A stretch of 54,297 bases of DNA from NCBI GenBank assembly GCA_902778325.1, contig CACYWZ010000016.1, positions 1 to 54,297 on the forward strand, given 5' to 3'. The stretch comes from an uncultured Spirochaetaceae bacterium (GTDB lineage Bacteria > Spirochaetota > Spirochaetia > Treponematales > Treponemataceae). Under the pieces are notes generated by a model. That model made no database searches. It was not told where the DNA came from and saw nothing but the letters and a program-made list of their open reading frames with translations. Below are positions 4,711 through 49,445 of this stretch, in pieces; within the stretch, counting starts at the first letter, position 1, and each line of letters opens with the position of its first letter. Made by a program: the position numbers and the translations under genes.

Positions 4711-4945
4711 TTGCGCTTTCCCGTTTTGGGAAAAGCCAAAAATAAAAAAGTTGAGCCTTTCCCGTTTTGGGAAAAGCCAAAAACAAAAAAATTTGGCCTT
4801 CCCCGTTCTGGGAAAAGTCAAAAACAAAAAAATTGAGCCTTTCCCGTTTTGGGAAAAGCCAAAAATAAAAAAGTCAGCCTTTTCCCGTTTCGGGAAGAGC
4901 CAAATTTTAAAAAAAGTTGATTTTCCCGTTTCGGGAAAGCGATTT
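4711..4945. repeat. 41-bp tandem palindromic array (6 units)
   Basis: CCCGTT recurs at 4720, 4761, 4802, 4843, 4884 and 4925, an exact 41-bp step. The palindrome is TTTCCCGTTTTGGGAAA and the spacer is A-rich (AAGCCAAAAA...AAGTTGAGC). It lies between the convergent 3' ends of the GH13 and araD genes. The hairpins could also act as terminators. Open frames across it are artefacts of low complexity. Confidence 0.9.
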
Positions 4946-4960
4946 TCGGACAAAACAAAA

Positions 4961-5020
4961 AACGCGCTTGGAAATGGGTAAATATCTCTCACAACAAAAA
5001 TCCCAAATCACAAGCGCGTT
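4961..5020. terminator. Long inverted repeat between convergent genes
   Basis: AACGCGCTTG (4961-4970) pairs perfectly with CAAGCGCGTT (5011-5020) across 40 bases. It sits between the 3' ends of the GH13 and araD genes. It may be a bidirectional transcription stop, although no long U-run follows immediately. Confidence 0.4.
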
Positions 5021-5063
5021 ATTGCTCTTGATAATCTTTTAAAGTTCCTCCTTTTTGAAAAAA

Positions 5064-5786
5064 TTATTTTCCTGGCTGACCGTAATAAGCATTAGGTCCG
5101 TGCTTTCTCTGATAATGCTTGTCGATGATGTACTCAGGAAGCGTCATTGCAGCAGGATTGACCGCTACTGTGAACGCTGCCATCTTTGCCACTTCTTCCA
5201 AGACAGCCGCATTGTAGACCGCCTTGTCAGCATTCTTTCCCCATGTGAAAGGCCCGTGCCCTGCCACAAGAACCATCGTTGTTTCGGCAGGATTTATGCC
5301 CTCGTCTGCAAAATGCTTGACGATGAGCTTTCCCGTCTCCAGCTCGTAGTTCGCCTTCAGCGCCTCGCGTGTGATGTAAGGCGTGCAAGGAACGGCTGTC
5401 TGAATGTGGTCAGCGTGTGTCGTTCCGAAAAGCGGGATTGAGCGGACAGCTTGCGCCCAGCTCACAGCGAATGTTGAGTGCGTGTGAACGATGCCGCCGA
5501 TGTCCGCGCCTTTTCCAACAGCCCACTCTTTGTAGAGAACGCAATGCGTGAGTGTGTCGCTTGACGGGTTCAAATCGCCTTCAACCTTGTTTCCGTCAAG
5601 GTCAACAACGACCATAGAATCCACGCTCAATTCAGGATAAGGCACTCCTGACGGCTTAATTGCGAAAACTCCCAAGTCCTTGTCGAACGCGCTGACGTTT
5701 CCCCATGTGTAAATCGCAAGATGCTGCTCAGGGATTTGCATATTCGCTTCATAAGCCTGTTCTTTGATTGACTGATATTTGCTCAT
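5064..5786 (-). CDS. araD: L-ribulose-5-phosphate 4-epimerase
   Basis: A 240-residue class II aldolase-fold enzyme that converts L-ribulose 5-phosphate to D-xylulose 5-phosphate, the last step of cytoplasmic L-arabinose catabolism. Zinc-ligand histidines are visible in IVHTHS (H101, H103) and VAGHGPF (H177), with the conserved Asp in SSDT (D77). The N-terminal TWGNVSAFD and KPSGVPY phosphate-binding motifs are intact. Length is close to the E. coli enzyme (231). The start at MSKYQ follows GGAG seven bases upstream; seven extra upstream codons are not supported. It is third after the kinase and isomerase genes, with a 13-bp hairpin before it. Confidence 0.95.
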   Translation of the reverse strand: MSKYQSIKEQAYEANMQIPEQHLAIYTWGNVSAFDKDLGVFAIKPSGVPYPELSVDSMVVVDLDGNKVEGDLNPSSDTLTHCVLYKEWAVGKGADIGGIVHTHSTFAVSWAQAVRSIPLFGTTHADHIQTAVPCTPYITREALKANYELETGKLIVKHFADEGINPAETTMVLVAGHGPFTWGKNADKAVYNAAVLEEVAKMAAFTVAVNPAAMTLPEYIIDKHYQRKHGPNAYYGQPGK

Positions 5787-5807
5787 TGTTTGCTCCAAAA
5801 ATATCAA

Positions 5808-5835
5808 TTAACAAGGGGAAGATTCCCCTTGTTAA
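5808..5835 (-). other. Perfect hairpin between araA and araD
   Basis: TTAACAAGGGGAA (5808-5820) pairs perfectly with TTCCCCTTGTTAA (5823-5835). A 13-bp stem with almost no loop lies nine bases after the araA stop and overlaps the region just before the araD ribosome site. No U-run follows on the minus strand, so an RNA processing or stability role is more likely than termination. Confidence 0.65.
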
Positions 5836-5843
5836 AAGCAGAT

Positions 5844-7364
5844 TTATCTTCTTGTGCTCCAGAACGCCGCGTTCCATCTCAATTCGTTTCGAATCTGAGG
5901 AATTGTCGTGTTCTTGTCGATTGCGACACATTCAATGCCGACCATCTCAGCCCAATCGCGAAGCTGTTCGGTTGTGATGATGTTGCTGAATGCTGTGTGG
6001 TGTCCGCCACCTGCCAAAATCCATGCTTCTGCGCTTGTCTCAAGATTTGGATATGGCTTCCAGAGCATGCGTGCGACAGGGAGCTTTGGAAGAGGCGCTT
6101 CTGGCGGAATGACGTTGATTTCGTTCACGACACAGCGGAATCTGTCGCCCATATCGACAACGGCCGCAACCAAGCCCTCGCCTTCGAGCGTGTTGAATAC
6201 CATGCGGGCAGGCGGCTCTTTGTCGCCAATTCCCAAGTGATGCACTTCGATTTTTGGCTTTGAAACTGCAATCTCTGGGTCGACTTCGAGCATATGGCTT
6301 CCCATGTTCGCTTCCTTTCCTGGAACGAGATTGTATGTGTAATCTTCCATGAAAGCATTGCCTTTCTTTCCTGCAACAGTCTGTCCTGCTGTCATCACCT
6401 TGAATGTGCGAACGAGAGCCGATGTCTTCCAGTCGCCTTCTGCTCCGAAACCGTAGCCGTCAGCGAGCAATCTCTGAATTGCCAAACCTGGAAGCTGCTT
6501 CATTCCGTGCAAATCCTGGAAGTTCGTGCAAAGCGCCTTTCCGTCGTTGTCCTTGAGGAAGCGGCGGAGTGCGATTTCAATTTTAGCCTGCTCTTTGATT
6601 TGACCGATAACGAAATCCTTTGTGAAGCCGTTTCCGCAGTCATAAACGATTTCGTATTTTGCATTGTACTCGTCGAAGAGAGCATTTACATCGCTTTCGC
6701 TGACGTCGTTCATATATGCAACGAGATCGCCGATTCCGTAATATGGAACGCTCCAGCCGAATTTAATCATTGCCTCAACTTTGTCGCCGTCTGTAACCGC
6801 AACTTCTCTCATATTGTCGCCAAAGCGAAGAACGCGCAAGGTCTTTCCGTCCGCCACAGCGCAAGCAGCGCGAATCCAGTCCGCAATGCGCTTTTGTGTG
6901 CGCTCAAGTGACCAGTGTCCGACAATGACCTTTCTTGGCAAGTCCATTCTACTCGTAATAAAGCCGAACTCGCGGTCGCCGTGTGCGCTCTGGTTGAGGT
7001 TCATAAAGTCCATATCCATCGTTGCATATGGGATTTCCATATTGAACTGAGTGTTCAACTGCAAAAGAGGCTTTTTGTATGCGTTCAAACCGCGAATCCA
7101 CATTTTTGCAGGGCTGAAAGTGTGGCACCAGATAATAACGCCAGCACATTTGTCGTCTGCGTTTGCGCACTCAAGCGTTTTGTGAATGCTATCTGGCGTC
7201 AAAAGCGTCTCTTTCCAAACGAGTTTGCAAGGAAAACCTGCTTTTGCGTTGAGCTCATCAACGATTTTCTTTGAATTGATAGCAACCTGCTTCAATGTTT
7301 CTTCGCCATACAAATCCTGACTTCCTGTCAAGAACCAAAACTCATACTGTGATAAGTCAATCAT
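5844..7364 (-). CDS. araA: L-arabinose isomerase
   Basis: A 506-residue enzyme that interconverts L-arabinose and L-ribulose in the cytoplasm using Mn2+. Metal-site residues align by motif with the E. coli enzyme: E309 (GAEGDWK), E340 (FMEDYTY), H357 (GSHMLEV) and H456 (GGGHHTAFS). The N-terminus FWFLTGSQDLYGEETL is characteristic. Length matches the usual 495-505. AGGAG precedes the ATG. It lies between the FGGY kinase gene (152 bp upstream, a gap with strong potential RNA structure) and araD (57 bp downstream). Confidence 0.97.
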   Translation of the reverse strand: MIDLSQYEFWFLTGSQDLYGEETLKQVAINSKKIVDELNAKAGFPCKLVWKETLLTPDSIHKTLECANADDKCAGVIIWCHTFSPAKMWIRGLNAYKKPLLQLNTQFNMEIPYATMDMDFMNLNQSAHGDREFGFITSRMDLPRKVIVGHWSLERTQKRIADWIRAACAVADGKTLRVLRFGDNMREVAVTDGDKVEAMIKFGWSVPYYGIGDLVAYMNDVSESDVNALFDEYNAKYEIVYDCGNGFTKDFVIGQIKEQAKIEIALRRFLKDNDGKALCTNFQDLHGMKQLPGLAIQRLLADGYGFGAEGDWKTSALVRTFKVMTAGQTVAGKKGNAFMEDYTYNLVPGKEANMGSHMLEVDPEIAVSKPKIEVHHLGIGDKEPPARMVFNTLEGEGLVAAVVDMGDRFRCVVNEINVIPPEAPLPKLPVARMLWKPYPNLETSAEAWILAGGGHHTAFSNIITTEQLRDWAEMVGIECVAIDKNTTIPQIRNELRWNAAFWSTRR

Positions 7365-7389
7365 ATTTATCTCCTAAAATATCCGTTCG

Positions 7390-7515
7390 TATTCCGTGCA
7401 AATAATTTGTTCATAACGTTTCTGCTGCCCTCGCTCTTATAGGGGGTAAGGCGTGCCTTTTGCAATTTTGTTGAAAAGGCAACGTCTTTAAAGGGAGAGG
7501 GCATTATCAAAAACG
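7390..7515 (-). promoter_or_regulatory. Structured gap between the kinase gene and araA
   Basis: The 151-bp gap holds nested complementary pairs on the minus strand: TGCCCTC near 7500 with GAGGGCA near 7428, and inside them GCCTTTT with AAAAGGC around 7455-7485. Together they could fold into a long hairpin before the araA leader. The part next to araA carries ATTTGCACG and CGAACGGAT, possibly one half of an arabinose-regulator site. It could be a processing site, an attenuator or an internal promoter region; none can be chosen from sequence alone. Confidence 0.4.
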
Positions 7516-9114
7516 CTAAATATTTTCTACAGCTGCTTTCAAAACTGGAAGACCCTTCTTGTAGTTTGCAAAGAAGCCGTTAAATCCTTCTACATCGCTC
7601 TTGTTTGGCTCGACAGTTGTCTTTTTCGCGCTTGCGAAAACTTCTTCTTCAAGCCACTTTCCAAGTTCTTTGCCCTTGCCGTTGATGAGATAAGACGCAA
7701 GAAGCGCCATTCCCCAAGGACCGCCTTCTCCCGCTGTCTCAAGTGCAGAAACGCTCGTGTGCATTGCTGCTGCCATGACGCGCAAGCCAACGTCAGCAGT
7801 CTTGAAGAATCCTCCATGTCCTGTGAGGCTGTCGATTTTGACCTTCTCATCGTCAAAAAGAATATCCATTCCTGTGCGGAGCGCTCCAAGAGCCGTGAAA
7901 AGCTGTGCGCGCATAAAATTGCTGAGCGTGAAGTTGTTGTTCTGAGTGCGGAGGAAAATCGTGCGTCCCTCGCTGAAGCCCGTCATGCTTTCGCCTGAGA
8001 TGTAGTTGTACGGAATGAGTCCGCCACAATCCGCGTCTCCCTTGAGCGCCTCAGAAAGAAGTTTGTCATAAAGTTCGCCCTTCTTCACATCAAAGCCCAA
8101 AGTCTTTGCAACCTCGCCGAAGAGCTTAATCCACTTGTCGTATTCGCCCGTGCAGTTGTTTGCGTGAGCCATTGCAACGAGTTTTCCGTCTGGAGTTGTA
8201 ACAAGGTCAATAAGACCGTTGTATGCCTTTGACAATTCTTTTTCAAGAACGACCATCGCAAACACAGAAGTTCCCGCAGAAACATTGCCGCTTCTTGCTG
8301 AAACGCTGTTTGTTGCCATCATACCAGTCTCAGCGTCGCCTTCACTTGCAGCCATCGGACAACCAGCTTCAAGGTCGCCCTCACAATCCAAGAGAGCAGC
8401 TCCCTCTTTTGTGAGATAGCCCGCGTTCTCTCCTGCAACAAGCACCTCTGGCAAAATCTCTTCCAACTTCCATGGCATCGCCTTGATTTCATCGAGAGCG
8501 TCGAACTTTTCAATCATCGTTTTGTTGAACTTGCGCGTTGCGATGTCAATCGGGAAAATACCAGAAGCATCTCCGACGCCAGTAATCTTCTTTCCAGAAA
8601 GACGCCAGTGGATAAAGCCGTCGAGCGTCGTGACGAACGCGACATCTTTGACGTGCGCTTCTTTCTTCAAAACCGCCTGATACAAATGCGCGATTGTCCA
8701 GCGCTCTGGAATTGGGTATCCGAAAAGCGCAGAGAGCTTCTCACTTGCCTCTCCCGTGATAGTGTTTCGCCAAGTGCGGAACGGAACGAGCAGATTGTCG
8801 CTCTTGTCAAAAGCCAAATATCCGTGCATCATTGCGCTCACGCCCAAAGCACCCAGCTTTTTGAGCGTAACGCCATATTTTTCCTGCACGTCTTTTTTCA
8901 TATCGTGATAGCAAGTCTTCAAGCCATTCAGAATCTCGTCCATCGAGTACGTCCAAATGCCGTCCACGAGAGAGTTTTCCCAGTCGAACGCGCCAGATGC
9001 GATTGGCTCGTTCTTTGAATTGATAAGGACAGCCTTAATACGCGTTGAGCCAAACTCAATGCCCAAGCAAGCCTTTCCTTCGCTAATTTCCGTAGTGATT
9101 TCGTTTTTTTCCAT
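7516..9114 (-). CDS. araB: FGGY-family carbohydrate kinase, probable L-ribulokinase
   Basis: A 532-residue kinase expected to phosphorylate L-ribulose with ATP. The N-terminal nucleotide fold begins CLGIEFGSTRIKAVLI (about 16-31). The substrate region has SAMMHGYLAFD and TWRNT, and the C-terminal domain contains TGHGGFF and ALETAGEGGPWG. It resembles the kinase type found beside araA and araD in Bacteroides and Clostridia more than enterobacterial AraB, so the role rests partly on the neighbourhood. GAAGGAG precedes the ATG. It is first of the three ara catalytic genes, 85 bp after the regulator gene. The gene symbol is by function and not by close homology to E. coli AraB. Confidence 0.85.
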   Translation of the reverse strand: MEKNEITTEISEGKACLGIEFGSTRIKAVLINSKNEPIASGAFDWENSLVDGIWTYSMDEILNGLKTCYHDMKKDVQEKYGVTLKKLGALGVSAMMHGYLAFDKSDNLLVPFRTWRNTITGEASEKLSALFGYPIPERWTIAHLYQAVLKKEAHVKDVAFVTTLDGFIHWRLSGKKITGVGDASGIFPIDIATRKFNKTMIEKFDALDEIKAMPWKLEEILPEVLVAGENAGYLTKEGAALLDCEGDLEAGCPMAASEGDAETGMMATNSVSARSGNVSAGTSVFAMVVLEKELSKAYNGLIDLVTTPDGKLVAMAHANNCTGEYDKWIKLFGEVAKTLGFDVKKGELYDKLLSEALKGDADCGGLIPYNYISGESMTGFSEGRTIFLRTQNNNFTLSNFMRAQLFTALGALRTGMDILFDDEKVKIDSLTGHGGFFKTADVGLRVMAAAMHTSVSALETAGEGGPWGMALLASYLINGKGKELGKWLEEEVFASAKKTTVEPNKSDVEGFNGFFANYKKGLPVLKAAVENI

Positions 9115-9158
9115 TACAAAAACTCCTTCTATGTTCTCTTAACAATTAACTTTGTATT

Positions 9159-9193
9159 TTTTTTGCAATGGACTTTGCGAGCATTGCAAAAAA
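9159..9193 (-). promoter_or_regulatory. Inverted repeat between regulator and kinase genes
   Basis: TTTTTTGCAATG (9159-9170) and CATTGCAAAAAA (9182-9193) form a perfect 12-bp inverted repeat around GACTTTGCGAG. It sits in the 85-bp gap before the kinase gene. It could be an operator for the adjacent LacI-type protein or an RNA hairpin. On the plus strand the arms are U- and A-rich, so it is not a clear terminator. Confidence 0.5.
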
Positions 9194-9199
9194 GCCGAA

Positions 9200-10261: not shown

Positions 10262-10294
10262 TCACTTTCTCTCTTTTTGCGTGTACGATAACAT

Positions 10295-10324
10295 ATACTA
10301 ATATGAGAACGCTGTTTCTGTCAA
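10295..10324 (-). promoter_or_regulatory. Promoter of the LacI-type gene and ara operon
   Basis: On the minus strand TTGACA (10319-10324), an 18-bp spacer and TAGTAT (10295-10300) lie about 33 bp before the ATG. It is probably the main promoter of the ara operon. The segment GTTATCGTACAC just downstream could hold an operator, but its symmetry is weak. Confidence 0.5.
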
Positions 10325-10370
10325 ATTCTTTTTTTACTTTTTTCGATAAATATCGTTTTGGCTCAAAATG

Positions 10371-10885
10371 ACCATTCCAAAATTATGGAAAGAGCATTCC
10401 GATTCACTGGCGGCGTTTCCACGTTTATGGAAAGAGCATTCCGACTTCCCGACGACCTTTCCACATTTATGGAAAGCCCATTCCGACTCACTGGCGACGT
10501 TTCCATGTTTGTGGAAAGCCCGTTCCGAGTTCCCGACGGCGTTTCCACATTTGTGGAAAGAGCATTCCGACTCACTGGCGACGTTTCCACAGTTATGGAA
10601 AGAGCATTCCGACTCACTGGCGGGGTTTCCACGTTTATGGAAAGCCCGTTCCGACTCACTGGCGACCTTTCCACAGTTATGGAAAGCCCATTCCGACTCA
10701 CTGGCGAACTTTCCACATTTATGGAAAGCCCGTTCCGAGTCACTGGCGGCGTTTCCACATTTGTGGAAAGAGCATTCTGACTCACTGGCGGTGTTTCCAC
10801 GATTATGGAAAGCCCGTTCCAAGTCACTGGCGGCGTTTCCACACTTATGGAAAGAGCATTCCGACTCACCGACGGCGTTTCCCAA
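10371..10885. repeat. 42-bp tandem palindromic array (12 units)
   Basis: TTCCG begins at 10397, 10439, 10481 and so on to 10859, always a 42-bp step. Each unit is a spacer (ATTCCGACTCACTGGCGGCG or close) plus a palindrome TTTCCACGTTTATGGAAA. The spacer is the same as in the 91-255 and 11041-11290 arrays but the palindrome is different. Some units have TTCCCGACG instead of TCACTGGCG, as in the 35.4 kb array. It lies between divergent genes (regulator and PfkB kinase). Frames on both strands stay open through it because 42 is divisible by 3; none has a ribosome site or a plausible protein. Confidence 0.93.
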
Positions 10886-10919
10886 ATTTTTTTACGCAGA
10901 AAAAGAGCGCGTACAACCT

Positions 10920-11038
10920 GTCATTCTGAGCGTAGTGAGTGAAACGAACGAAGTCGAAGAATCTACTAAGACATTATGAAAAATAAAAGCCAGATTCTTC
11001 GACTCCAAACGCCTACGCCGTTTTCCGCTCAGAATGAC
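10920..11038. mobile_element. Dispersed inverted-repeat element (MITE-like), complete copy
   Basis: 119 bp bounded by GTCATTCTGAGCG and CGCTCAGAATGAC, a perfect 13-bp terminal inverted repeat. Inside is a second inverted pair, GTCGAAGAATCT and AGATTCTTCGAC. It has no coding capacity. Other copies are at 1-90 (partial), 15614-15746 and 49220-49350. Very similar motifs are, as I recall, common in many unrelated bacterial genomes. It separates two palindromic arrays. Confidence 0.75.
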
Positions 11039-11040
11039 AT

Positions 11041-11290
11041 TATAAACACCGTTCCGAGTTGCTGGCGGGCTTTATAAGGTTTTACAAACGACATTCCGAG
11101 TCGCTGGCGAGGTTTATAAGGTTTTATAAATGGCGTTCCGAGTCGCTGGCGGGCTTTATAAGGTTTTACAAACGGCGTTCCGAGTCACTGGCAGGCTTTA
11201 TAAGGTTTTACAAACGACATTCCGAGTCACTGGCGGGGTTTGTAAGGTTTTACAAACGGCGTTCCGAGTTGCCGGCGGGCTTTGTAAAAT
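11041..11290. repeat. 42-bp tandem palindromic array (6 units)
   Basis: TTCCGAG at 11052, 11094, 11136, 11178, 11220 and 11262, an exact 42-bp step. Palindrome TTTATAAGGTTTTACAAA or TTTGTAAGGTTTTACAAA; spacer TTCCGAGTCGCTGGCGGG. Same family as 91-255. It ends about 50 bp before the PfkB promoter. Confidence 0.92.
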
Positions 11291-15613: not shown

Positions 15614-15746
15614 GTCATTTTGAGCGGAAAACGGCGATTAGCCGTTTGAAGTCGAAAAATCTGCCAAAACATTGTCAGCAGCGTTTGTTTTGTGCGCAGT
15701 AGATTCTTCGACTTCGTTCACATACGTTCACTACGCTCAGAATGAC
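15614..15746. mobile_element. Dispersed inverted-repeat element, complete copy
   Basis: 133 bp. The left end GTCATTTTGAGCG and right end CGCTCAGAATGAC form the terminal repeats, with inner GTCGAAAAATCT and AGATTCTTCGAC. The left arm holds an extra small hairpin (AAACGGCGATTAGCCGTTT). The centre differs from the 10.9 kb copy, so only the ends and arms are conserved. Confidence 0.72.
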
Positions 15747-15780: not shown

Positions 15781-15960
15781 AAACTACGAAGGTCGGTTTT
15801 AAAATCGACCCTCGTAGTTTAAACGATTGCCTTCCCGCATGCAAAACGAGCCTCGTAGTTTAAACGATTGCCTTCCCGCATGCAAAACGAGCTTCGTAGT
15901 TTAAACGATTGCTTTCCCGCATGCAAAACGTGCCTCGTAGTTTAAACGAGAGCCGTTCGG
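15781..15960. repeat. 41-bp tandem array with GTTTAAAC palindrome (4 units) and leading 40-bp hairpin
   Basis: TCGTAGTTT recurs at 15812, 15853, 15894 and 15935, a 41-bp step. Each unit contains GTTTAAAC and GCATGC palindromes. The array begins with a 40-bp hairpin (15781-15820) whose arms AAACTACGA and TCGTAGTTT plus GGTCG and CGACC pair with one mismatch. It is the first of two different 41-bp arrays in the same gap. Confidence 0.88.
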
Positions 15961-15984
15961 CTTGCGGGAGTGCGTTTTTCTTTC

Positions 15985-16150
15985 AGAATTGCTTCCTGCA
16001 CGGTGCGGGAGGCTTTTTTTGTTGCAAGATTGCTTCCTGCATGCTGCGGGAGGCTTTTTTTGTTGCAAAACGGCTTCCTGCACGCTGCGGGAGAGCGTTT
16101 TAGTTGCAAAACGGCTTCCTGCAAGGTGCAGGAGAGCGTTTTATTAGCTA
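15985..16150. repeat. 41-bp tandem array with CTTCCTGCA...TGCGGGAG hairpin (4 units)
   Basis: CTTCCTGCA recurs at 15992, 16033, 16074 and 16115, again a 41-bp step, but the palindrome and spacer are unrelated to the neighbouring array. Unit: CTTCCTGCACGCTGCGGGAG plus a T-rich, TTGCAAAACGG-containing spacer. It ends about 60 bp before the 3' end of the DUF2798-like gene. Confidence 0.88.
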
Positions 16151-19150: not shown

Positions 19151-19510
19151 GAAGTCGGACGAACTCTGTCCCAAGTCGGACAAACGCTATCCCAAGTTGG
19201 ACGAAGAATTTCCCAAGTCGGACGAAGAGTATCCCAAGTTGGGGAAACAATATCCCAAGTCGGACGAACAATATCCCAAGTCGGACGAACAATATCCCAA
19301 GTTGGGGAAACAATATCCCAAGTTGGGGAAAGAATTTCCCAAGTTGGACGAAGAGTATCCCAAGTCGGACGAACAATATCCCAAGTTGGGGAAAGAATTT
19401 CCCATGTCGGACGAAGAGTATCCCAAGTTGGGGAAAGAATTTCCCATGTAGGACGAACAATATCCCATGTCGGACGAACAATTTCCCATGTAGGACGAAG
19501 AATTTCCGAG
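19149..19510. repeat. 21-bp tandem array (16-17 units)
   Basis: CCCAAGT or CCCATGT recurs at 19170, 19191, 19212 and so on to 19485 with no slip from a 21-bp step. Two unit types alternate irregularly: TCCCAAGTCGGACGAACAAT and TCCCAAGTTGGGGAAACAAT; the second holds the palindrome CCCAAGTTGGG. The period is exactly half that of the 42-bp arrays. It lies between the 5' end of the 108-aa gene and the 3' end of the SH3 gene. Peptide repeats in several frames are artefacts. Confidence 0.93.
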
Positions 19511-28195: not shown

Positions 28196-28360
28196 CAAAT
28201 CTTTTCCCTTGATGTCAAGGAACATCTCCTTAATCTCAAGGAAACTCTCCTTAATCTCAAGGAAACTCTCCTTAATGTCAAGGAACTTCTCCTTCACGTC
28301 AAGGAAGTCCTCCTTGATGTCAAGGAAACTCTCCTTAATCTCAAGGAACTCTTCCTTAAC
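28196..28360. repeat. 21-bp tandem array (7 units)
   Basis: TCAAGG at 28215, 28236, 28257, 28278, 28299, 28320 and 28341, an exact 21-bp step. Unit: CTCCTTAATCTCAAGGAAA, containing the palindrome TCCTTNNNNNNAAGGA. It lies between two minus-strand genes and runs to within two bases of the upstream gene's stop and about ten bases of the TraX start, so it forms the whole intergenic spacer. It would be the 5' leader or read-through region of the TraX operon. Confidence 0.92.
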
Positions 28361-29179: not shown

Positions 29180-29325
29180 AAAAATGAGCTTTAAACAAAT
29201 GTTTTTTCAATACTTTTTCAAGAAAACGCCCTTTAAACAAATGTTTTTTCAACACTTTTTTAAGAAAACGCCCTTTAAACAAATATTGTTTCAATACTTT
29301 CTTAAGAAAACGGCTCGACAACAAA
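29180..29325. repeat. 42-bp tandem palindromic array (3-4 units)
   Basis: TTAAAC at 29191, 29233 and 29275, a 42-bp step. Each unit holds TTTAAACAAATGTTTTTTCA and a second palindrome that is perfect in the last unit (TTTCTTAAGAAA). It lies between the 5' end of the SH3 gene and the 3' end of the lipoprotein gene at 29356, in a 258-bp gap with no other feature. Confidence 0.85.
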
Positions 29326-35359: not shown

Positions 35360-35790
35360 AGAACTTCCCGACAGCCTTTTTCCGTTTGGAAAATGCTTGC
35401 CCGAACGTCCCGACGGCATTTTTCCATTTGGAAAATCGTTGTCCGAGAGTCCCGACAGCATTTTTCCGTTTGGAAAATGCTTGTCCGAATGTCCCGACAG
35501 CCTTTTTCCGTTTGGAAAATGCTTGCCCGAATGTCCTGACAGCATTTTCCGTTTGGAAAATCGTTGTCCGAATGTCCCGACGGCATTTTCCGTTTGGAAA
35601 ATCGTTGTCCGAACGTCCCGACGACCTTTTTCCATTTCCCAATTGCTTGTCCGAACGTTCTGATGGCGTTTTGGGATTTCCCAATTGCTTGCCAGAGCGT
35701 CCCGACAGCGTTTTGGGATTTCACAATGACTTGTCCGAACGTTCCGACGGCGTTTTGGGATTTCCCAATTGACTGCCCGAACGTTCCGAC
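35360..35790. repeat. 42-bp tandem array with a switch of palindrome type (11 units)
   Basis: TCCCGAC or close at 35366, 35408, 35450, 35492, 35534, 35575, 35616, 35658, 35700, 35742 and 35784: steps of 42, with two of 41. The spacer GTCCGAACGTCCCGACGGC is constant. In the first units the palindrome is TTTTCCGTTTGGAAAA; in the last four it is TTGGGATTTCCCAA. Unit 35622-35647 is chimeric: its left arm (TTTTTCCATTT) is of the first type and its right arm (CCCAATTGCTT) of the second. The array lies between the convergent azlD and response regulator genes and ends next to the latter's stop. Confidence 0.93.
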
Positions 35791-35793
35791 GGC

Positions 35794-39842: not shown

Positions 39843-39904
39843 ACTCCCTTTTCCAAGACGGAAAAAGAAAAATTTCACCTCGCGAAGAGCATTTTTCACT
39901 TTAT

Positions 39905-40175
39905 AAACACACTTTTCCACATTATCCACATACTTTTCCACATGCTTATCCACATTTTCAATGTTACAAAACATTTTTGCAACATAAAAAATCATTATTG
40001 CAACGTCAAATTTAATCAAAATCACATTGCAATACATTTTTGTAACGTCAAAAATATGTTTTTTGATGTTGCAAATTCAATTTTCCATATCAAAAAACAC
40101 ATTTTTTATGTAGCAAATTAAATTTGTGATGATGCAAATTTGTTTTGCAACGTTGAATTTTCAAAAAACAATGTG
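39905..40175. repeat. AT-rich region with motifs phased at 21 and 42 bp
   Basis: TTGCAAC or TTGTAAC at 39977, 39998 and 40040, and GCAAATT at 40071, 40113 and 40134, give steps of 21 and 42. TCCACA motifs at 39916 and 39937 are also 21 apart. Several short palindromes (ACATTTTTGTAACG, ACATTTTTTATGT) are present. It looks like a degenerate member of the phased palindromic arrays, in the gap between the sensor operon and ttcA. Confidence 0.55.
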
Positions 40176-43415: not shown

Positions 43416-43442
43416 TATAACTCCTTAACGCGCAACTTTTTG

Positions 43443-43456: not shown

Positions 43457-43464
43457 TTATTTTC

Positions 43465-43492
43465 ATTTTAGCACTCATTTTCCATTTGTCAA
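43465..43492 (-). promoter_or_regulatory. Sigma70-type promoter of the GH53 gene
   Basis: TTGACA (43487-43492), a 16-bp spacer and TAAAAT (43465-43470) on the minus strand. The leader to the ATG is about 40 bp and contains the operator and the AAGGAG ribosome site. Confidence 0.7.
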
Positions 43493-43494
43493 CG

Positions 43495-43730
43495 CAATTA
43501 TTTTTCAATAATTCGTTCGCTGAAAAAAAAGAGAGGCGTTATTTTTTAATAATTCGCTCTCTTTTAAATTAGGATTGAAATTATTGGCTGATAATTGCTC
43601 GGCTGGAAAAAAAGAAGGGAATTATTAGCCAATAATTGCGTGCTTTTTTTTTGAGTTGACAATTATTGCGCAATAATTCCTTGGCTTTTTTAAAAAGTGG
43701 AGAATTATTAGTCAATAATTCAAAAAATCG
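43495..43730. repeat. 41/42-bp tandem palindromic array, AT-rich (6 units)
   Basis: AATAATT or GATAATT at 43507, 43548, 43590, 43631, 43672 and 43714: steps of 41, 42, 41, 41 and 42. Each unit centres on a palindrome such as GAATTATTNNNNAATAATTC, for example CAATTATTGCGCAATAATT. The spacers are poorly conserved, A-rich stretches. It fills the gap between the GH53 promoter and the fabF stop. Confidence 0.9.
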
Positions 43731-43734
43731 AGAA

Positions 43735-44997: not shown

Positions 44998-45035
44998 TGC
45001 CCTTCCTCAACTGAGAGCTTTCTCCCGATATGATT

Positions 45036-46139
45036 TTATTTTCTGTTCTTGAAATATGCCGCGAACGGATTGTATGTGTCTGCTGAATAAGAGTCGCTGC
45101 TCTGCTTTGCCATGTATGAAGCGGCCTCGTTATCCTGCTCGACACTTGAGGCGCTCTTCAAGGCGATTCTCTTCTCTTCTCTTGAGACGCTCAACACGAC
45201 GACGCTGAACTTGTCGCCGACTTTGAACTTCTTGCTAAGATTTGTGTTCTTGTCGACATTGAGCTCGGAGATGTGAACGAGACCGTCAATGCCTTCTTCA
45301 AGGTTGACGAAAATACCGAACGGAGCGATTCTTGCGATAGTTCCGTCGACTTTCGTTCCCGCTGTGTATTTTTCTGCGACGCTATCCCAAGGGTCTTTCT
45401 CAAGTGCCTTGAGGCTCAACGAGACACGCTCTTTTTCCCAGTCCGCCTTGATGACTTTTGCCTCGACTTCCTGTCCGACAGACAATACTTCATCGATTTT
45501 CTCGATGCGGCGGTGTGCGATTTCGCTGACAGGGAGCAATGCCTGAAAGCCATCGATGTCGACGAATGCGCCATAATCTTTGAGCGCCGTAATCTTTCCG
45601 CGAACAATCTTGCCTTCGCTTATTTGCTTTGAAAGCTCGCTCAAGTGCTCTTTTGCTTCTCTCTCGCGAACTGCGCGATTTGAAACTACGATGCTCTTTC
45701 CCTCGTTCTTGTACTCTTGAATGATGAATGTGAGGTGCTTTCCGACGAACTCAGAAGCCTCTGCCTTCTGGCGATAGCCCATCTGTGAGTATGGACAGAA
45801 TGCTCTTGTCGTTCCGATTGTGACCTCAAATCCGCCTTTGATTTCTTTTTCGACTTTGCCCTCAACTGGCATACCGCTCTTCCATGCGCTTTCAAGAACG
45901 CTGTTGTCAGCCTTCTCGCCTGAAAGACGCGTCGTGAAAAGCATTTCGCCTCTCTTCTCGCCAAGGAAGAACACGCTGATTTTGTCGCCCTCTTTGACGC
46001 TGACGTTTCCTTCTTTGTCTGTGAACTCTGCGACGCTGAGCATTCCCTCGCTCTTCAATCCGAGGTCAATGAAAACTGTGTCGCCTGAAACTGCAACAAC
46101 CGTAGTATCGATTTTCTGTCCGACTTGAAATCTTTCCAT
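45036..46139 (-). CDS. S1 RNA-binding domain protein (ribosomal protein S1-like, four domains)
   Basis: A 367-residue protein with four OB-fold S1 domains at about 4-70, 85-155, 175-245 and 258-330. The best conserved are domain 3 (GKIVRGKITALKDYGAFVDIDGFQALLPVSEI) and domain 4 (VDGTIARIAPFGIFVNLEEGIDGLVHISEL). The first two are divergent. The C-terminal 35 residues are polar and likely flexible. It is shorter than proteobacterial S1 (six domains) and may be the functional S1 of this organism or an accessory mRNA-binding factor. The ribosome site GGGAG is 11 bases from the ATG. Probably in an operon with the fabF-like gene. Confidence 0.88.
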   Translation of the reverse strand: MERFQVGQKIDTTVVAVSGDTVFIDLGLKSEGMLSVAEFTDKEGNVSVKEGDKISVFFLGEKRGEMLFTTRLSGEKADNSVLESAWKSGMPVEGKVEKEIKGGFEVTIGTTRAFCPYSQMGYRQKAEASEFVGKHLTFIIQEYKNEGKSIVVSNRAVREREAKEHLSELSKQISEGKIVRGKITALKDYGAFVDIDGFQALLPVSEIAHRRIEKIDEVLSVGQEVEAKVIKADWEKERVSLSLKALEKDPWDSVAEKYTAGTKVDGTIARIAPFGIFVNLEEGIDGLVHISELNVDKNTNLSKKFKVGDKFSVVVLSVSREEKRIALKSASSVEQDNEAASYMAKQSSDSYSADTYNPFAAYFKNRK

Positions 46140-46200
46140 AAGAAAAATGACTCCCTTAAATATATATTTTTGTCATATCCAGCAAAGTTAAAAGCATATT

Positions 46201-46229
46201 TGATTCTTCGACTACGCCATGAATGACAA
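46201..46229. mobile_element. Remnant of the dispersed inverted-repeat element
   Basis: GATTCTTCGACTAC followed by GCCATGAATGACA matches the inner and outer motifs of the right arm with the middle deleted. It lies in the 121-bp gap between the S1 gene and the operon ending at 46261. Confidence 0.4.
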
Positions 46230-46260
46230 GCAATTCTTTTTCAAAAAGCCTCTTTGCTCT

Positions 46261-46692
46261 TTACTCCGACATCACGACGAAGATTGAGCCAAAGACAAGA
46301 AGATGCGTCGTGAGCATCTTTAGGTATGCAAGCACTGAATCAATTGACTTGAACACACCGCCACCACAAAGACCCTTTTCTCCCAGCACGTCAATAATGA
46401 TGATGATGAAAAACCAGACAATCGTTATCAAAATCATCGATACGGCACTAAAGAGCGCTTTGTTGATGAACTTCTCAAGAATCAGCATAACACCAGAAGC
46501 CACTTCAACTGTGCAGATAATGAATGACAGCACTTTATCAATCTGTGAGTCAAGGTTAGTGAACTTGAGAAACAAAGCGGCTATGTGGTGCTCAGCAATA
46601 TCATGGGCGATAAGCCCGATAATGCCCGCAACCAGAAGATACACTGCAAGCGCGAACTGCAATGTGGTAATGCCGAAACTCTTCGTCTTCAT
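46261..46692 (-). CDS. Four-helix membrane protein, DoxX-like
   Basis: A 143-residue protein with four predicted transmembrane helices (about 9-30, 53-73, 80-103, 122-142) and a cytoplasmic or periplasmic loop DVLGEKGLCGGGVFKSIDS. The spacing of the helices recalls small DoxX/DoxD-type proteins, but no diagnostic residue is evident, so the name is tentative. GGGAG precedes the ATG, nine bases after the ASCH-domain gene. It is last gene of a four-gene operon (48312 to 46261). Confidence 0.65.
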   Translation of the reverse strand: MKTKSFGITTLQFALAVYLLVAGIIGLIAHDIAEHHIAALFLKFTNLDSQIDKVLSFIICTVEVASGVMLILEKFINKALFSAVSMILITIVWFFIIIIIDVLGEKGLCGGGVFKSIDSVLAYLKMLTTHLLVFGSIFVVMSE

Positions 46693-46701
46693 AAAAACTC
46701 C

Positions 46702-47208
46702 CTATGCGTGATAAACCACGCTGAATATTTCTGCGACAACTCTCATATTATCGCTAAACTCATATCCCATTATGTCGCCTTCTTCCTCAAACGCCTGCCG
46801 CTTTCGCTCCCGCCAGGCCTCAAGGTTCTCGTCCTCGCCTTCACGTGAGGCAAGCTCCCATGAAACGTCAGCGAAAGGAAGAACCGCCACGTTCTCAGTG
46901 CGGATAATGCAAGAAGGCTCTCCGTTGTAATCAAGCACAACAGAGTATTCGCCCGAAAGCGGCAATGGCTCTCGGTCTATCGAATACGCTTCAAAAGCGT
47001 TGAACATCACCGTCTTCTTTCCCGAAAGCACAAGCGACAATAGCGCTGCCTTGTCGTTGCCCTTGCCGTCGAACGTCAAGTCCCCGGCATAAAGCGCTTC
47101 TTCCTCCAGTCCTGCTTTCGCTTTGAATGTGTTCCAGAACTCGTCCACCTTGGAACTTTGCACAGCGTTAAGCTCCGAAGATTCTGCCATTGCTTCTTCA
47201 AAATCCAT
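46702..47208 (-). CDS. ASCH-domain protein
   Basis: A 168-residue soluble protein. After a helical N-terminus (VDEFWNTFKAKAGL) the ASCH fold runs from about 55 to 165: LVLSGKKTVMFNAFEAYSID, PLPLSGEYSVVLDYNGEPSCIIRTENVAVLPFADVSWELASREGE and WRERKRQAFEEEG. ASCH domains are PUA-like and bind RNA or modified nucleosides; some are amidohydrolases of N4-acetylcytidine. The role here is unproven. It is third gene of its operon, ten bases after the small membrane-protein gene. Confidence 0.88.
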   Translation of the reverse strand: MDFEEAMAESSELNAVQSSKVDEFWNTFKAKAGLEEEALYAGDLTFDGKGNDKAALLSLVLSGKKTVMFNAFEAYSIDREPLPLSGEYSVVLDYNGEPSCIIRTENVAVLPFADVSWELASREGEDENLEAWRERKRQAFEEEGDIMGYEFSDNMRVVAEIFSVVYHA

Positions 47209-47218
47209 ATTATTTACC

Positions 47219-47509
47219 TCACGAAGTAAAAATCACTGATATGAAAGCAGCGCCAAAAAGGAGAGAAGGTGCGAGCGTGAAAAACATGTCCAATGCGTTC
47301 AGATCGAACACCTTTGCTTCTGGAAGCGCTATCAAGCCCAAGACGCATAGCATTTGCGACAGCGTTCCTGCAAAGCGGATGACGACAGCAGCGCAAATGC
47401 ACGTCCATGAAAACTCCCGCGTCTTGCTCCATGCGAGTATCGCAAGAAACGTGACAAGAGCGCCCGTTGCGGCTTTTATCGCAAAAGGCAAAAGAGCGCT
47501 GAAAGTCAA
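47219..47509 (-). CDS. Small membrane protein with TTG start, 96 aa
   Basis: Three predicted helices (about 5-25, 33-60, 75-94) in a 96-residue protein with many small residues. Family not recognised. The start is predicted to be TTG: GGAG lies seven bases upstream, and the TTG overlaps the upstream stop codon (TTGA), so it is translationally coupled. No ATG occurs in a sensible place before residue 50. It is second gene of the 48312-46261 operon. Confidence 0.65.
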   Translation of the reverse strand: MTFSALLPFAIKAATGALVTFLAILAWSKTREFSWTCICAAVVIRFAGTLSQMLCVLGLIALPEAKVFDLNALDMFFTLAPSLLFGAAFISVIFTS

Positions 47510-48312
47510 TTAGACGCTCCAGAGACGAAAGGCGTGTTCTTCAGCTTGGAGAAAACGCCCTTGTCCGCTCCGAAAGGCACAATGCTCGGAACATCATAAA
47601 GCGGGCTTATAACGATTTCGCAGTCAAGACAGTGCCTGACGAACTCTTCGTAGTCCTCTCTCTTCACCTTCGGAAACAAGTAGCAGCCCTTTCTCGTCCA
47701 GTATTTCGTAAGCACGCTGTCATAGATGAAAAAGTCCTTCTCCTGCCATTCACGCTCTTCTTTGATGAGGTCAAAAAGAGAGCGGGCAACACCTGCCGCC
47801 ATCGGCGCGCTCAAGAAAACAGACGCGAAATCCTCTCCGATACAATCGCTCTTTTCTGCCTTCACGGCAATGAGCGTCACAGAAGAAAAGGCGCTGAGAG
47901 GAAGAGGCGGCTCAATAATCACAACGTCCTCAGTGCTATAATCAACGCGTTCTGGTGAAAATGGCGTGTATGTCTTTGCGCCCTTTGCAAAAGGCACATC
48001 GCTTGCACAGTGGCACACGAACACCTTGCGGCTTGGCTTTCCGCTTAATCTGTTGTCGATGAGGGCGCTTGCCGCTTTGTCGAGCTGATAGGCTTCGCGA
48101 GTGCAAAATGAGCCAGTGCTTCCTCGGTTAAGGGCGTTCTTCAGCATGGTAAAGGCGCTGGAGCCTCCCCAACCCAAGATTGCCCTTCCGCCCTCGCGGT
48201 ACATGTCGGTAAGTCTGATTGATTTTTCTGTATACAAAAAACAGCCACGAGCTCTTTTTATCGCTCCGTAGCGTTCAAAAATATCGTTTGAAAGGCTTAG
48301 TATTTCATTCAT
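47506..48312 (-). CDS. Hypothetical protein, 268 aa (aminotransferase-like N-terminus)
   Basis: A soluble protein starting MNEILSLSNDIFERYGAIKRARGCFLYTEKSIRLTDMYREGGRAILGWGGSSAF. The YTEKSIRLTDMYREGGRAILG run resembles the N-terminal segment of class III aminotransferases, which reads YLDFGAGIAVNALGH or similar, but no cofactor lysine or GTGS-type motif follows. It may be a degenerate or structurally related protein. The rest has FVCHCASD and VVIIEPPLPLSAFSSVTLIAVKAE strands. The ATG is eight bases after an extended -10 (TGCTATAAT) with no ribosome site. It is first gene of a four-gene operon. Confidence 0.7.
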   Translation of the reverse strand: MNEILSLSNDIFERYGAIKRARGCFLYTEKSIRLTDMYREGGRAILGWGGSSAFTMLKNALNRGSTGSFCTREAYQLDKAASALIDNRLSGKPSRKVFVCHCASDVPFAKGAKTYTPFSPERVDYSTEDVVIIEPPLPLSAFSSVTLIAVKAEKSDCIGEDFASVFLSAPMAAGVARSLFDLIKEEREWQEKDFFIYDSVLTKYWTRKGCYLFPKVKREDYEEFVRHCLDCEIVISPLYDVPSIVPFGADKGVFSKLKNTPFVSGASN

Positions 48313-48320
48313 TGATTTGC

Positions 48321-48329
48321 ATTATAGCA
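48321..48329 (-). promoter_or_regulatory. Extended -10 promoter abutting the 268-aa gene
   Basis: TGCTATAAT on the minus strand (TATAAT = 48321-48326), eight bases before the ATG at 48312. No good -35 at 17 bp, but the TGN extension compensates. Leaderless candidate for a four-gene operon. Confidence 0.55.
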
Positions 48330-48432
48330 AATATCTGTCAAAATAAAAAGTAGTGTGCTTAGTGAGAAAAAATAACACCATTTTTTTATTAACAAAGTGC
48401 TTGCAAAGTGATACACTTCATAATCGGTAAAT

Positions 48433-48458
48433 GAAGCGCAGCGATAAGATAGCGCTTC
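48433..48458 (+). promoter_or_regulatory. 5' leader hairpin before the HU-like gene
   Basis: GAAGCGC (48433-48439) and GCGCTTC (48452-48458) form a 7-bp GC-rich stem ending two bases before the AAGGAG ribosome site at 48460-48465. It could modulate translation. A second short inverted pair (AGTG and CACT, 48405-48420) lies just upstream. Confidence 0.45.
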
Positions 48459-48471
48459 TAAGGAGTTGCAC

Positions 48472-49209
48472 ATGGCAAGTTCTATGATTTGGGAGACTTA
48501 CCTTCGCCCAAATACATTGACTGCCGACAATGACCGCGACTGCATTGCCGAAGTTCATTCAAAGAATCCCACCCGACAAAACAGCGACATCGCCGACAGC
48601 ATCGTAAAAGGGCGAAGTGAGTTTAAGAGAGAAACAATCCTGAGTATCTTGAGCCAAAGAGACCAGATTGTCAAAGAGTACCTTTGCGAAGGCGATTCAT
48701 TCCGCGACGGCATCGTTCAAATCTCGCCTCGCATAACGGGTATCTGGGAAACAGAGTCGAGCCCGTTCGACCCTTCGATTCACCGCCGCACGCTCGATAT
48801 GGTGATGACAGGCGATATGAGAGCGACACTCGACAACGTGAGCGTGAAAGTGCTCGGAAAGAAAGAATTGTCTGCAAAGATTGCCTCTGTTAAAAACAGC
48901 CTCACAGGAAAGGAGGACGGCACTATCCCTGTCGGTGATGATGTCATTATCGAAGGGGATAAGATAAAGATTCAAGACGAGAACGATGTCGCACAAGGCG
49001 TTTTCTTTGTGGACGCAGAAGGAGCGGAACATCGCGTCGAGAGAAAGCTTACCGAGAACAAGCCTTCCCGCATTATCGCCCGCGTTCCTGCCGACATCAA
49101 CGAAGGCGACATCTCTCTCATCATCAGAACAAAGGCTGGAACAGGCTCATTCGTACTTAAGTCTGTTCGCGAAATCAAGTATGACTATTCTTTGAAAGCC
49201 GTTAAATAA
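48472..49209 (+). CDS. HU-like DNA-binding / DUF4469 protein
   Basis: A 245-residue protein. The N-terminal half (about 1-125) is an HU/IHF-like fold of the kind found in Bacteroidetes and Treponema: WETYLRPNTLTADNDRDCIAEV, NSDIADSIVKGRSEFKRETILSILSQRD and DGIVQISPRITGIWE. The C-terminal half (about 150-245) is an Ig-like DUF4469 domain (GVFFVDAEGAEHRVERKL, SRIIARVPADINEGD, YDYSLKAV). It could bind DNA and shape the nucleoid or an extracellular matrix. The start is fixed by AAGGAG; two upstream codons are unsupported. Monocistronic with its own terminator at 49452. Confidence 0.87.
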   Translation: MASSMIWETYLRPNTLTADNDRDCIAEVHSKNPTRQNSDIADSIVKGRSEFKRETILSILSQRDQIVKEYLCEGDSFRDGIVQISPRITGIWETESSPFDPSIHRRTLDMVMTGDMRATLDNVSVKVLGKKELSAKIASVKNSLTGKEDGTIPVGDDVIIEGDKIKIQDENDVAQGVFFVDAEGAEHRVERKLTENKPSRIIARVPADINEGDISLIIRTKAGTGSFVLKSVREIKYDYSLKAVK

Positions 49210-49219
49210 AAGAATTTGT

Positions 49220-49350
49220 GTCATTTTGAGCGGAAAACGGCGTTAGCCGTTTGGAGTCGAAAAATCTACTTGTGTTTTTCATAAACGCTTGTGGTTTGTG
49301 GTGCCAGATTCTTCGACTACATTCGCTTCGCTCATTCCGCTCAGAATGAC
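49220..49350. mobile_element. Dispersed inverted-repeat element, complete copy
   Basis: 131 bp with ends GTCATTTTGAGCG and CGCTCAGAATGAC and inner GTCGAAAAATCT and AGATTCTTCGAC. The left arm is nearly identical to that of the 15614-15746 copy (AACGGCGTTAGCCGTT hairpin), while the centre differs. Starts ten bases after the HU-like stop. Confidence 0.73.
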
Positions 49351-49358
49351 AGTCAGAA

Positions 49359-49445
49359 AATTGACTTCTAAGTCAACGATGTCTTGAGTCCTAAGTCAAC
49401 GATATCTTGAGTTCTAAGTCAACGATGTGTTGAGTTCTAAGTCGA
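49359..49445. repeat. 23-bp tandem array (4 units)
   Basis: CTAAGTCAAC at 49368, 49391 and 49414, with a variant at 49437, a 23-bp step. Unit: TTGAGTTCTAAGTCAACGAT. It opens with the palindrome TTGACTTCTAAGTCAA. It is the only array here whose period is not 21 or 41-42. It lies between the dispersed element and a terminator. Confidence 0.85.

Follow-up and report, generated by a model that had tools for sequence, protein, structure and literature searches.

The window analysed here, a 54,297-nt stretch of DNA of an uncultured, Treponema-like Spirochaetaceae bacterium, carries thirteen arrays of short repeats, all present at approximately the positions listed in the preliminary description; eleven are clear in a tandem-repeat search with TRF and two are only partly caught. 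Directly preceded by a dispersed repeat (45-90), the array at 92..256 (42-bp period, 3.9 copies) combines a TTTGTAA/TTACAAA palindrome with a CATTCCGAGTCACTGGCG half-unit. Convergent genes, one of the alpha-amylase family, flank a 41-bp array at 4716..4938 (5.4 copies) with the palindrome TTTCCCGTTTTGGGAAA. Between divergent genes for a LacI-type regulator and a PfkB-type kinase lies a 42-bp array of 12.1 copies (10375..10882; TTTCCAnnnnnnTGGAAA palindrome and CATTCCGACTCACTGGCG half-unit), which matches 25 places in its own genome, counting itself; the 42-bp array at 11050..11287 (5.7 copies) joins the half-unit of the former to another palindrome, TTTATAAGGTTTTACAAA. Two 41-bp arrays occupy 15802..15949 (3.6 copies; CGTAGTTTAAACGA and GCATGC dyads) and 15963..16142 (4.4 copies; CTTCCTGCANNNTGCGGGAG dyad). 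The period is 21 bp at 19152..19507 (17 copies, with a 63-bp higher-order repeat, without a consensus stem at the threshold given below) and at 28207..28359 (7.3 copies, CCTTnnnnnCAAGG palindrome), where the array overlaps script-called genes by 59%. At 29189..29312 (42 bp, 3 copies) a AAACATTTGTTTAAAG half is fused to a CGTTTTCTTAAGAAAGTATTG half, each of which is found elsewhere with other partners. The 42-bp array at 35361..35793 (about 10 units, two overlapping TRF rows) switches its palindrome from TTTTCC/GGAAAA to TTGGGA/TCCCAA via one hybrid unit, and the other half stays in phase. Degenerate 21-bp repeats at 39892..40140 gave two short, weak TRF rows, one at 61% match, and only 43620-43721 is reported by TRF from the irregular array at 43495..43721, whose AATTATTnnnnAATAATT-like palindromes follow one another at about 42 bp across variable spacers. 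The last array (49361..49443, 23 bp, 3.6 copies) consists of a TTGACTTCTAAGTCAA dyad plus 7 bp, without a consensus stem at threshold. The window contains no tRNA and no Rfam match at the gathering threshold.

The genome was surveyed with TRF in a sample of 61 pieces (1.24 Mb taken, precisely 1.235 Mb, of which 1.14 Mb readable; about one third of the genome), counting period classes of 20-24, 40-43 and 82-84 bp. These classes held 177 arrays, which by extrapolation corresponds to several hundred in the whole genome. Sharp peaks had been predicted at 21 and 41-42 bp, and the 202 TRF rows indeed peaked at 41 (71 rows), 42 (39) and 21 bp (23), followed by 23 (22), 82-84 (8), 24 (6), 40 (5) and 43 bp (2). 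The 23-bp period, previously taken for a single case, was thus as common as that of 21 bp, and 22 bp was represented by one array. The remaining rows comprised 10 at period 69, which are probably coding repeats as judged without translation, and 16 at other periods. A control of 78 loci, mostly from other phyla (1,255,353 b), yielded 82 arrays with periods of at least 10, none of them at 40-43. Slippage, described earlier as almost absent, was low but not nil, with a deletion in 73 of 510 internal units.

Palindromic stems scoring at least 5.2 were found in 53.1% of units compared to 8.9% of shuffled units. Neither a broad distribution of periods nor a palindrome content at the level of shuffled sequence was seen in the survey. 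The excess is real, but the claim that every array is a palindrome with a spacer went too far: a stem at threshold was present in 132 of the 177 arrays. Within the window, 5 of 14 analysed TRF rows lacked one, two of which (starting at 92 and 11050) show a palindrome by eye. The palindromes are approximately 15-18 bp long and specific to an array or family. Stem positions were substituted less often than rotated positions (0.054 vs 0.092 ± 0.004), with the minimum at the fourth pair from the loop. Two dyads were present in 56 of 117 units of 41/42 bp (29.9 in shuffles), the second being weaker and often about half-way along; self-complementarity over whole units of this class was only slightly raised (0.526 vs 0.471).

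Nearly all arrays (165/177) were intergenic, and 134 of the 328 sampled gaps of at least 150 b held one. For all array classes together, convergent gaps were richest (43/112) and divergent gaps held arrays in 25 of 128 cases; the median distance of the 40-43/82-84 class was 80 b to gene 3' ends versus 166 b to gene starts. The counts per 20 kb (mean 3.08 in 50 unmasked pieces) gave no sign of even chromosomal spacing, as their variance/mean ratio of 0.69 compares with roughly 0.6 expected, by a hand estimate, for random filling of gaps.

The 41/42-bp units proved to be mosaics whose half-units recur with different partners. At score 13, the 117 units of 40-43 bp fell into 32 components, singletons included; the array sequences are not all different but form families with halves in common. 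A looser clustering, in which 117 of 125 units ended up in a single chained group at a threshold near the null maximum, was dropped. Only 1 of 52 units of 21-24 bp was shared with 41/42-bp units. Units were most alike at lag 2 in 24 of 61 arrays and at lag 1 in 14, and dyad position was retained in 25% of spacer-sharing ordered pairs (11/44; null 5.8%). Six aligned copies show one family to be dispersed as an element of approximately 268 b that has inverted ends (AAAAATTGTATACG...CGTATACAATTTTTT) and lies between unrelated flanks; spacer order is retained in the pair L188/L212, and for 194 of 421 intergenic segments a related stretch of 60 bp or more exists elsewhere in the sample. The half-palindrome ends of the six-copy family suggested a general rule that failed across 76 arrays, whose edges lay within 5 bp of a palindrome centre at a frequency of 0.23 (0.27 expected) and shared no terminal run. 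Immediately to the left of arrays, T was a little more frequent than to the right (p 0.027). The TCATTCTGAGCG...GAAGAATC repeat, also dispersed, was rejected as a driver, having only 21 clusters in the sample, 10 of them within 60 b of an array.

Palindromes of the same family keep their distance. Among 446 pairs 17-100 b apart, 378 were at 39-43 b, 66 at 80-85 b and 2 elsewhere, and shuffled motifs gave no pairs; in these counts a place may be registered twice when neighbouring motifs hit it, and dispersed copies lack independence. Spacers were called distinct when less than 55% alike to every other spacer of their gap. This left 340 pairs, the majority, outside the distinct set and 106 within it, of which 77 were at 39-43 b, 27 at 80-85 b and 2 elsewhere, in a test resting on 47 gaps that include single-spacer gaps and, in part, dispersed copies of one element. 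In the strictest set, gaps with at least two spacers, all 50 pairs were in register (45 at 40-43, 5 at 80-84 b). With three mismatches permitted, other distances accounted for 34 of the 170 distinct-spacer pairs; shuffled motifs then yielded 34 pairs and, since they still hit arrays, 24 of these likewise lay at 40-42 or 81-83 b. The dyad inside distinct spacers was not more central than in shuffles (0.60 vs 0.58). These data suggest that the spacing itself matters, as it holds where the intervening letters have changed.

A second species of the genus (G094) displayed the same periods and stem conservation (0.073 vs 0.117 ± 0.007 at rotated positions) in mostly unrelated sequences, so the view that arrays share spacing and dyad rather than sequence holds there as well. 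Ten of its arrays have a 22-bp period. It contributed a single distinct-spacer pair, and the spacing result was not replicated there; half-units common to both species were weakly indicated (8 of 1521 pairs at score 12 vs 1 in the null). The one array family tested had matches in 2 of 201 genomes of the genus, its own included, and the nearest relative shows 76% identity at purA DNA. Except for G094 and, to a lesser degree, G052, sampled congeners are array-poor; the genus therefore does not need the arrays.

Bacterial intergenic repeats are usually defined by their sequence. What stays constant here is the geometry: in both species, whose sequences are mostly unrelated, dyads lie some two or four turns from each other. 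The earlier statement that no counterpart has been described was too strong, as BIMEs, the non-coding satellites of Leptospira and sopC of the F plasmid are partial ones. BIMEs/REPs of enterobacteria, Pseudomonas and Xanthomonas occur in many, mostly extragenic copies that bind several proteins, and share with the present arrays regularly spaced palindromes in intergenic composite structures (PMC2817692, in the part cited); REPs carry a GTAG or CGTC tag adjoining the palindrome (PMC3733652, in the part cited). They differ from our arrays, which have many unrelated palindromes at fixed steps of 41/42 and 21-23 bp, and for which no RAYT-type Y1 transposase was found. The non-coding satellites of Leptospira interrogans (repeat lengths 37, 46 and 69; two thirds of 42 satellites intergenic) are also chromosome-spread tandem families of a spirochaete, without known function; our arrays differ in that the portions of that survey drawn on here do not describe a palindromic unit, a period common to families or half-unit exchange (PMC6749651). 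The same portions give 23.0 satellites per Mb for the densest bacterial replicon, 9.68 for L. interrogans chromosome I and 89, mostly short repeats, for the archaeon Methanosarcina vacuolata. By the survey's definition, four or more tandem repeats of 10-200 nt, applied without its regularity score, 91 arrays of the 1.235-Mb sample count as satellites, including 87 from the period classes; an array whose spacers are unlike would fall outside this definition. The resulting 74 arrays of at least four copies per Mb (80 per Mb of readable letters) exceed any bacterial replicon in those portions, some archaea being equally dense and the software (TRF here) being different. The many recent, independently arisen and partly intergenic tandem repeats of Borgs resemble ours in number and location, but Borgs are archaeal and extrachromosomal, and the abstract mentions neither palindrome nor fixed period (PMC9879509). 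As a functional model for palindromes spaced by about four turns, sopC (parS of F) comes nearest: its twelve 43-bp tandem repeats come with ten 16-bp inverted repeats bound by the ParB of F, and ParB binds parS as dimers (PMC6238139, in the part cited). Its architecture is comparable to ours at 41-42 bp, where the sequences are different and the families many. There, one locus, sequence and protein are involved; here there are many loci and palindromes, the only ParB_N match in the own assembly (94% complete) was below cut-off (21.2 bits), and a search with the G070 ParB gave no match in it.

We tentatively favour, a little short of an even balance, intergenic arrays of phased dyads acting at the DNA level, with dimeric proteins bound in register and the arrays shaped by local amplification and shuffling. 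The palindromes, which repeat every four helical turns or so (41-42 bp; two turns for the 21-bp class), would be occupied by one dimeric DNA-binding protein or by a few related ones; constraint would act on the half-sites and the centre-to-centre distance rather than on the spacer. Arrays would grow and shrink in whole units by unequal exchange or slippage, half-units may be exchanged between arrays, which would explain the mosaic families, and the function might be nucleoid- or insulator-like. The 32 components count against this reading, being many palindromes for one sequence-specific protein, and so do the 23-bp class, the missing AT helical signal, the lack of even spacing along the chromosome, the small sense-strand GC skew of the units, the sub-cut-off ParB_N match, the array-poor congeners, the single distinct-spacer pair in G094, dyad positions retained in no more than a quarter of spacer-sharing pairs and the dyad placement inside distinct spacers. 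The phased platform of the preliminary description fits the spacing kept without spacer likeness, but leaves the 23-bp class (2.2 turns) unexplained and is further weakened by the missing 10.25-bp AT signal, the rarity of 22 bp in this genome and the two dyads in about half of the 41/42 units; its alternative, local amplification by a fixed length step, may also apply. We consider possible, with greater reserve, that spacing and within-array dyad identity are under selection and palindrome and spacer are free to differ between loci, the arrays forming a chromosome-wide class of element that is coded by architecture and not by sequence, built of interchangeable 20-21 bp half-units and shared, with different sequences, by two or more well-separated species of a single spirochaete genus. 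If spacing is selected, this would indicate a protein that organises DNA, or else copying by a process that itself measures length.

Alternatively, the arrays may do nothing for the host. A selfish satellite, in which fold-back single strands are amplified during replication at a preferred step, would let any sequence serve, and its stems would look conserved as units losing the palindrome stop amplifying. The constant architecture of diverse sequences, the restriction of the tested family to 2 of 201 genomes, the higher-order repeats, the likeness of units at lag 2 (24/61 arrays) and the intergenic location, farther from gene starts than from gene ends, agree with this explanation. We nevertheless think it unlikely, if worth serious weight: neutral decay should lose the spacing through indels, and spacing stays at 40-43 despite unlike spacers. 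A step of 41 bp is not known to us from replication. Spacers might instead be acquired, by an integrase-like activity that inserts spacer-sized DNA at the palindrome and duplicates the latter in a CRISPR-like manner. The gap L193:18671-19021, with a constant palindrome and four different spacers, looks as expected from such fixed-length insertion, the stretch between 15-base cores at 40-43 bp being 25-28 bp. Most neighbouring pairs, however, have like spacers, the AT content shared by distinct spacers runs roughly symmetrically along them, with minima in the second and eighth ninths, which is unexpected for random DNA, and Cas1 (PF01867) was found in none of three array-bearing genomes (G000, the own genome; G094; G052) and in four of five array-poor ones. 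We therefore judge this explanation improbable.

Similarly low probability is given to miniature mobile elements. Arrays within MITE- or BIME-like elements moved by a transposase in trans would inherit their period by descent, yet the same period would have to recur in many unrelated families if they did not all go back to one ancestor. The Y1 (RAYT) transposase PF01797 and reverse transcriptase had no match in the own genome (94% complete); across eight genomes PF01797 was above cut-off only in G070, with a weak partial match in G094. Array edges are not generally at a palindrome centre and have no terminal run in common, and it is the six-copy family with inverted ends, the relatives of intergenic segments and the L188/L212 spacer order that speak for mobility. 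A role at the RNA level, with transcribed hairpin strings as terminators or 3' stabilisers, appears very improbable, as no sense-strand preference was detected in wobble mismatches (sense strand G.T 49, A.C 54), in fold z-scores (p 0.37) or in T-runs after the stem in 61 tandem-gap arrays (0.31 vs 0.32, p 0.83). Within-array covariation was not in excess (12 vs 9.4 ± 2.4), a result more in keeping with half-sites read as sequence than with a need for pairing; arrays are also present in divergent gaps, and the window lacks Rfam matches. The stable folds (z about -4), the nearness of the 40-43/82-84 class to 3' ends and the abundance of arrays in convergent gaps are on the side of such a role.

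The base composition of the units has further regularities. In 41/42-bp units, AT harmonics 1, 2, 5, 6 and 7 were raised (z 5.8, 2.2, 3.8, 5.5 and 3.5, respectively), and A-tract bending was rejected with AT power at a quarter of the period below that of shuffles (z -1.6). The units also have a small sense-strand GC skew of 0.021 (p 0.011).

Tandem arrays were surveyed with TRF in 61 pieces of the genome that carries the window as the whole of its contig C16 (G000; 1,235,446 b including 96,006 b masked as N, from an assembly of 3.35 Mb in 173 contigs, 94% complete). The arrays listed in the preliminary description were recovered in the window, and the sample as a whole yielded 202 merged arrays. 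Their periods were 41 bp (71 arrays), 42 (39), 21 (23), 23 (22), 24 (6), 40 (5), 43 (2), 82-84 (8), 69 (ten) and others (16), and the classes 20-24, 40-43 and 82-84 held 177 of the 202, a density of about 155 per Mb of letters. Extrapolation from the sample gives about 520 arrays for the whole genome. An array began within 400 b of 7 of 26 sampled contig starts, indicating that the assembly tends to break at arrays and that long arrays may have more units than were counted. In 78 control loci, mostly from other phyla (1,255,353 b; seven, L075-L081, are spirochaete loci), 82 arrays of period ≥10 were found, none of them at 40-43. In the genomes of 31 congeners (775,796 b) there were 19 arrays, 8 with at least 2.8 copies, and seven of those 8 had periods of 21-23 or 44. 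The 69- and 138-bp repeats at L190:1477-4775, L199:7029-11591 and L187:12069-13663 (sampled loci) resembled, by eye, coding leucine-rich (BspA-like) repeats.

From gene content and purA relatives, the host is probably a Treponema-like spirochaete. The closest named purA relatives were a Spirochaetales MAG (82%) and a Treponema MAG (76%), in a comparison that may lack records very close to the window. In purA DNA the closest genus genome was only 76% identical, in a search of 201 genomes (G000 among them) of which 174 gave a match. The window has a GC content of 46% and carries a gene set at 268-3026, where the protein at 2034-3026 matches ABC_sub_bind.

By our own gene caller, a simple one that overlooks some genes, 165 of the 177 arrays were intergenic. 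An array was present in 110 of 192 gaps of 250-700 b, and in 43 of 112 convergent, 73 of 529 tandem and 25 of 128 divergent gaps. Arrays of the 40-43/82-84 class lay at a median of 80 b from gene ends and 166 b from gene starts. Summed, all arrays come to 28,199 b, a length equal to 17% of the sequence separating called genes.

The preliminary description had put forward palindrome excess over shuffled sequence as a check, and this excess was borne out: the best stem score reached 5.2 in 53.1% of the 177 arrays versus 8.9% of column-shuffled units. An earlier folding measure had given p≤0.05 in 74 of 139 arrays. In 123 arrays with a stem and at least three rows, differences from the consensus amounted to 5.4% at stem, 14.3% at loop and 11.0% at other positions; rotated control positions differed at 9.2±0.4%, compared with 5.4% for the true stem positions. 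Truncating stems at variable columns may enlarge the contrast. Two non-overlapping dyads were found in 56 of 117 units of the 41/42 class (29.9 in shuffles), and in 57% of these two-dyad units the dyads were 18.5-21.5 bp apart, versus 31% in shuffles.

Spacing was evaluated by searching gaps with 92 motifs, the 15-base dyad of each array, for neighbours 17-100 b apart. With ≤2 mismatches, 446 neighbouring pairs were obtained, 378 at 39-43, 66 at 80-85 and 2 elsewhere, while shuffled motifs gave none. In 106 pairs the spacer was <55% like every other spacer of its gap, and 77 of these were at 39-43, 27 at 80-85 and 2 elsewhere; without single-spacer gaps, 50 remained (45 at 40-43, 5 at 80-84). 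Removing redundancy reduced the 77 distinct spacers to 54, from 47 gaps. Their AT profile was roughly symmetric, and 28% held a weak dyad versus 13% of shuffles, no more central than in shuffles. At 3 mismatches there were 631 pairs (504 at 39-43, 87 at 80-85) against 34 with shuffled motifs, and 170 distinct-spacer pairs (96 at 39-43, 40 at 80-85, 34 elsewhere). That spacing is held despite unlike spacers is our main ground for favouring selection acting on geometry rather than the decay of a satellite. Spacing without spacer likeness is a result for G000; in G094, a second array-bearing species of the genus, 58 of 62 pairs were at 39-42 and only one had a distinct spacer, so that the distinct-spacer part is not replicated there.

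G094 came to light through one weakly matching locus. Its 498,431 b contained 58 arrays of period ≥10, 27 at 21-24, 13 at 40-42 and three at 25-39. A stem score ≥5.2 was reached by 21 of 41 arrays versus 4.9% of shuffles, and stem substitution (0.073) was about half that elsewhere (0.159). The units of the two species were mostly unrelated (8 of 1521 pairs at score 12; null 1). In G052, a congener bearing arrays to a lesser degree, periods were 22, 41, 81 and 250 bp, with arrays of 81, 41 and 250 bp at L069:234-544, L069:7225-7731 and L221:3343-4885; another congener, G028, has a 94-bp array at L057:7500-8041. Given the periods in G094 and G052 and the mostly unrelated G094 sequences, the architecture is shared by part of the genus, whereas sequences are species-specific. 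In the congener 81-bp unit a GTAGA/TCTAC palindrome occurs twice, at a distance of about 41 b.

Within G000, 189 of 6786 pairs among 117 units had a common segment at score ≥13 (null 2), many about half a unit long. Midpoints of half-matches lay ≤6 bp or ≥15 bp from the main dyad in 60 of 76 examined, and 103 of 152 ends fell 6-15 bp from the dyad centre. The half-unit AAACATTTGTTTAAAG occurs with two partners and CGTTTTCTTAAGAAAGTATTG with at least five, while CGCCAGTGACTCGGAA is combined with two different palindromes. In the window array at 35361-35793 the palindrome switches via one hybrid unit, with phase retained.

Whether the dyads are read as DNA or RNA was addressed in tandem gaps, where the sense strand is known. 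Stem mismatches showed no strand preference (G.T 49, A.C 54), and the strands were alike in T after stems (0.31 versus 0.32) and in fold z (-4.5 versus -4.2; 45 arrays); the one strand difference was a small GC skew (p 0.011). Within arrays, compensatory changes were not in excess (12 versus 9.4±2.4). When full-length related arrays were compared, 15 of 25 double changes retained pairing, a modest sign of compensation. Strand neutrality and the lack of a compensatory excess within arrays thus favour dyads that act at the DNA level and are read by sequence. The arrays are a real, unusual genome feature and belong with palindromic intergenic repeat arrays, in a new form; as the mechanism, a phased dyad platform has roughly an even chance of being correct. 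The open-access literature, to which our search was largely confined, yielded no description of intergenic palindrome arrays with a fixed 21/41-42 bp period.

Zero matches to Y1 transposase, reverse transcriptase or Cas1 were obtained in the 94% complete G000 assembly. Cas1 had no match in the array-bearing G000, G094 and G052 and a match in 4 of 5 array-poor genomes (G028, G044, G049, G070, G001), a comparison of few genomes. ParB_N matched strongly in 7 of 7 other genomes tested, while the best G000 match reached only 21.2 bits, which may reflect a gap in the assembly; this match lies at C1:20218-20469, near a frame that is integrase-like by eye. One array family takes the form of a dispersed element, about 268 b long and bounded by the inverted ends AAAAATTGTATACG...CGTATACAATTTTTT, of which six copies were aligned (L028:7056-7427, L028:12028-13146, L204:19438-19815, L193:14483-15197, L191:8045-8439 and L181:2343-2812). 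Its GTATAC palindromes number about seven, including two half palindromes at the ends; they recur about every 41 b, and the spacers between them are unlike. Such inverted ends are not general among the arrays. L188:357-854 and L212:3619-4156 share their palindromes and the order of their unlike spacers (83% identity over 371 b). Another dispersed repeat has TCATTCTGAGCG and AGTCGAAGAATC as its ends and occurs in the window at 45-90, 10921-11038, 15615-15746 and 49221-49350; of its 21 clusters in the sample, 10 lie no more than 60 b from an array.
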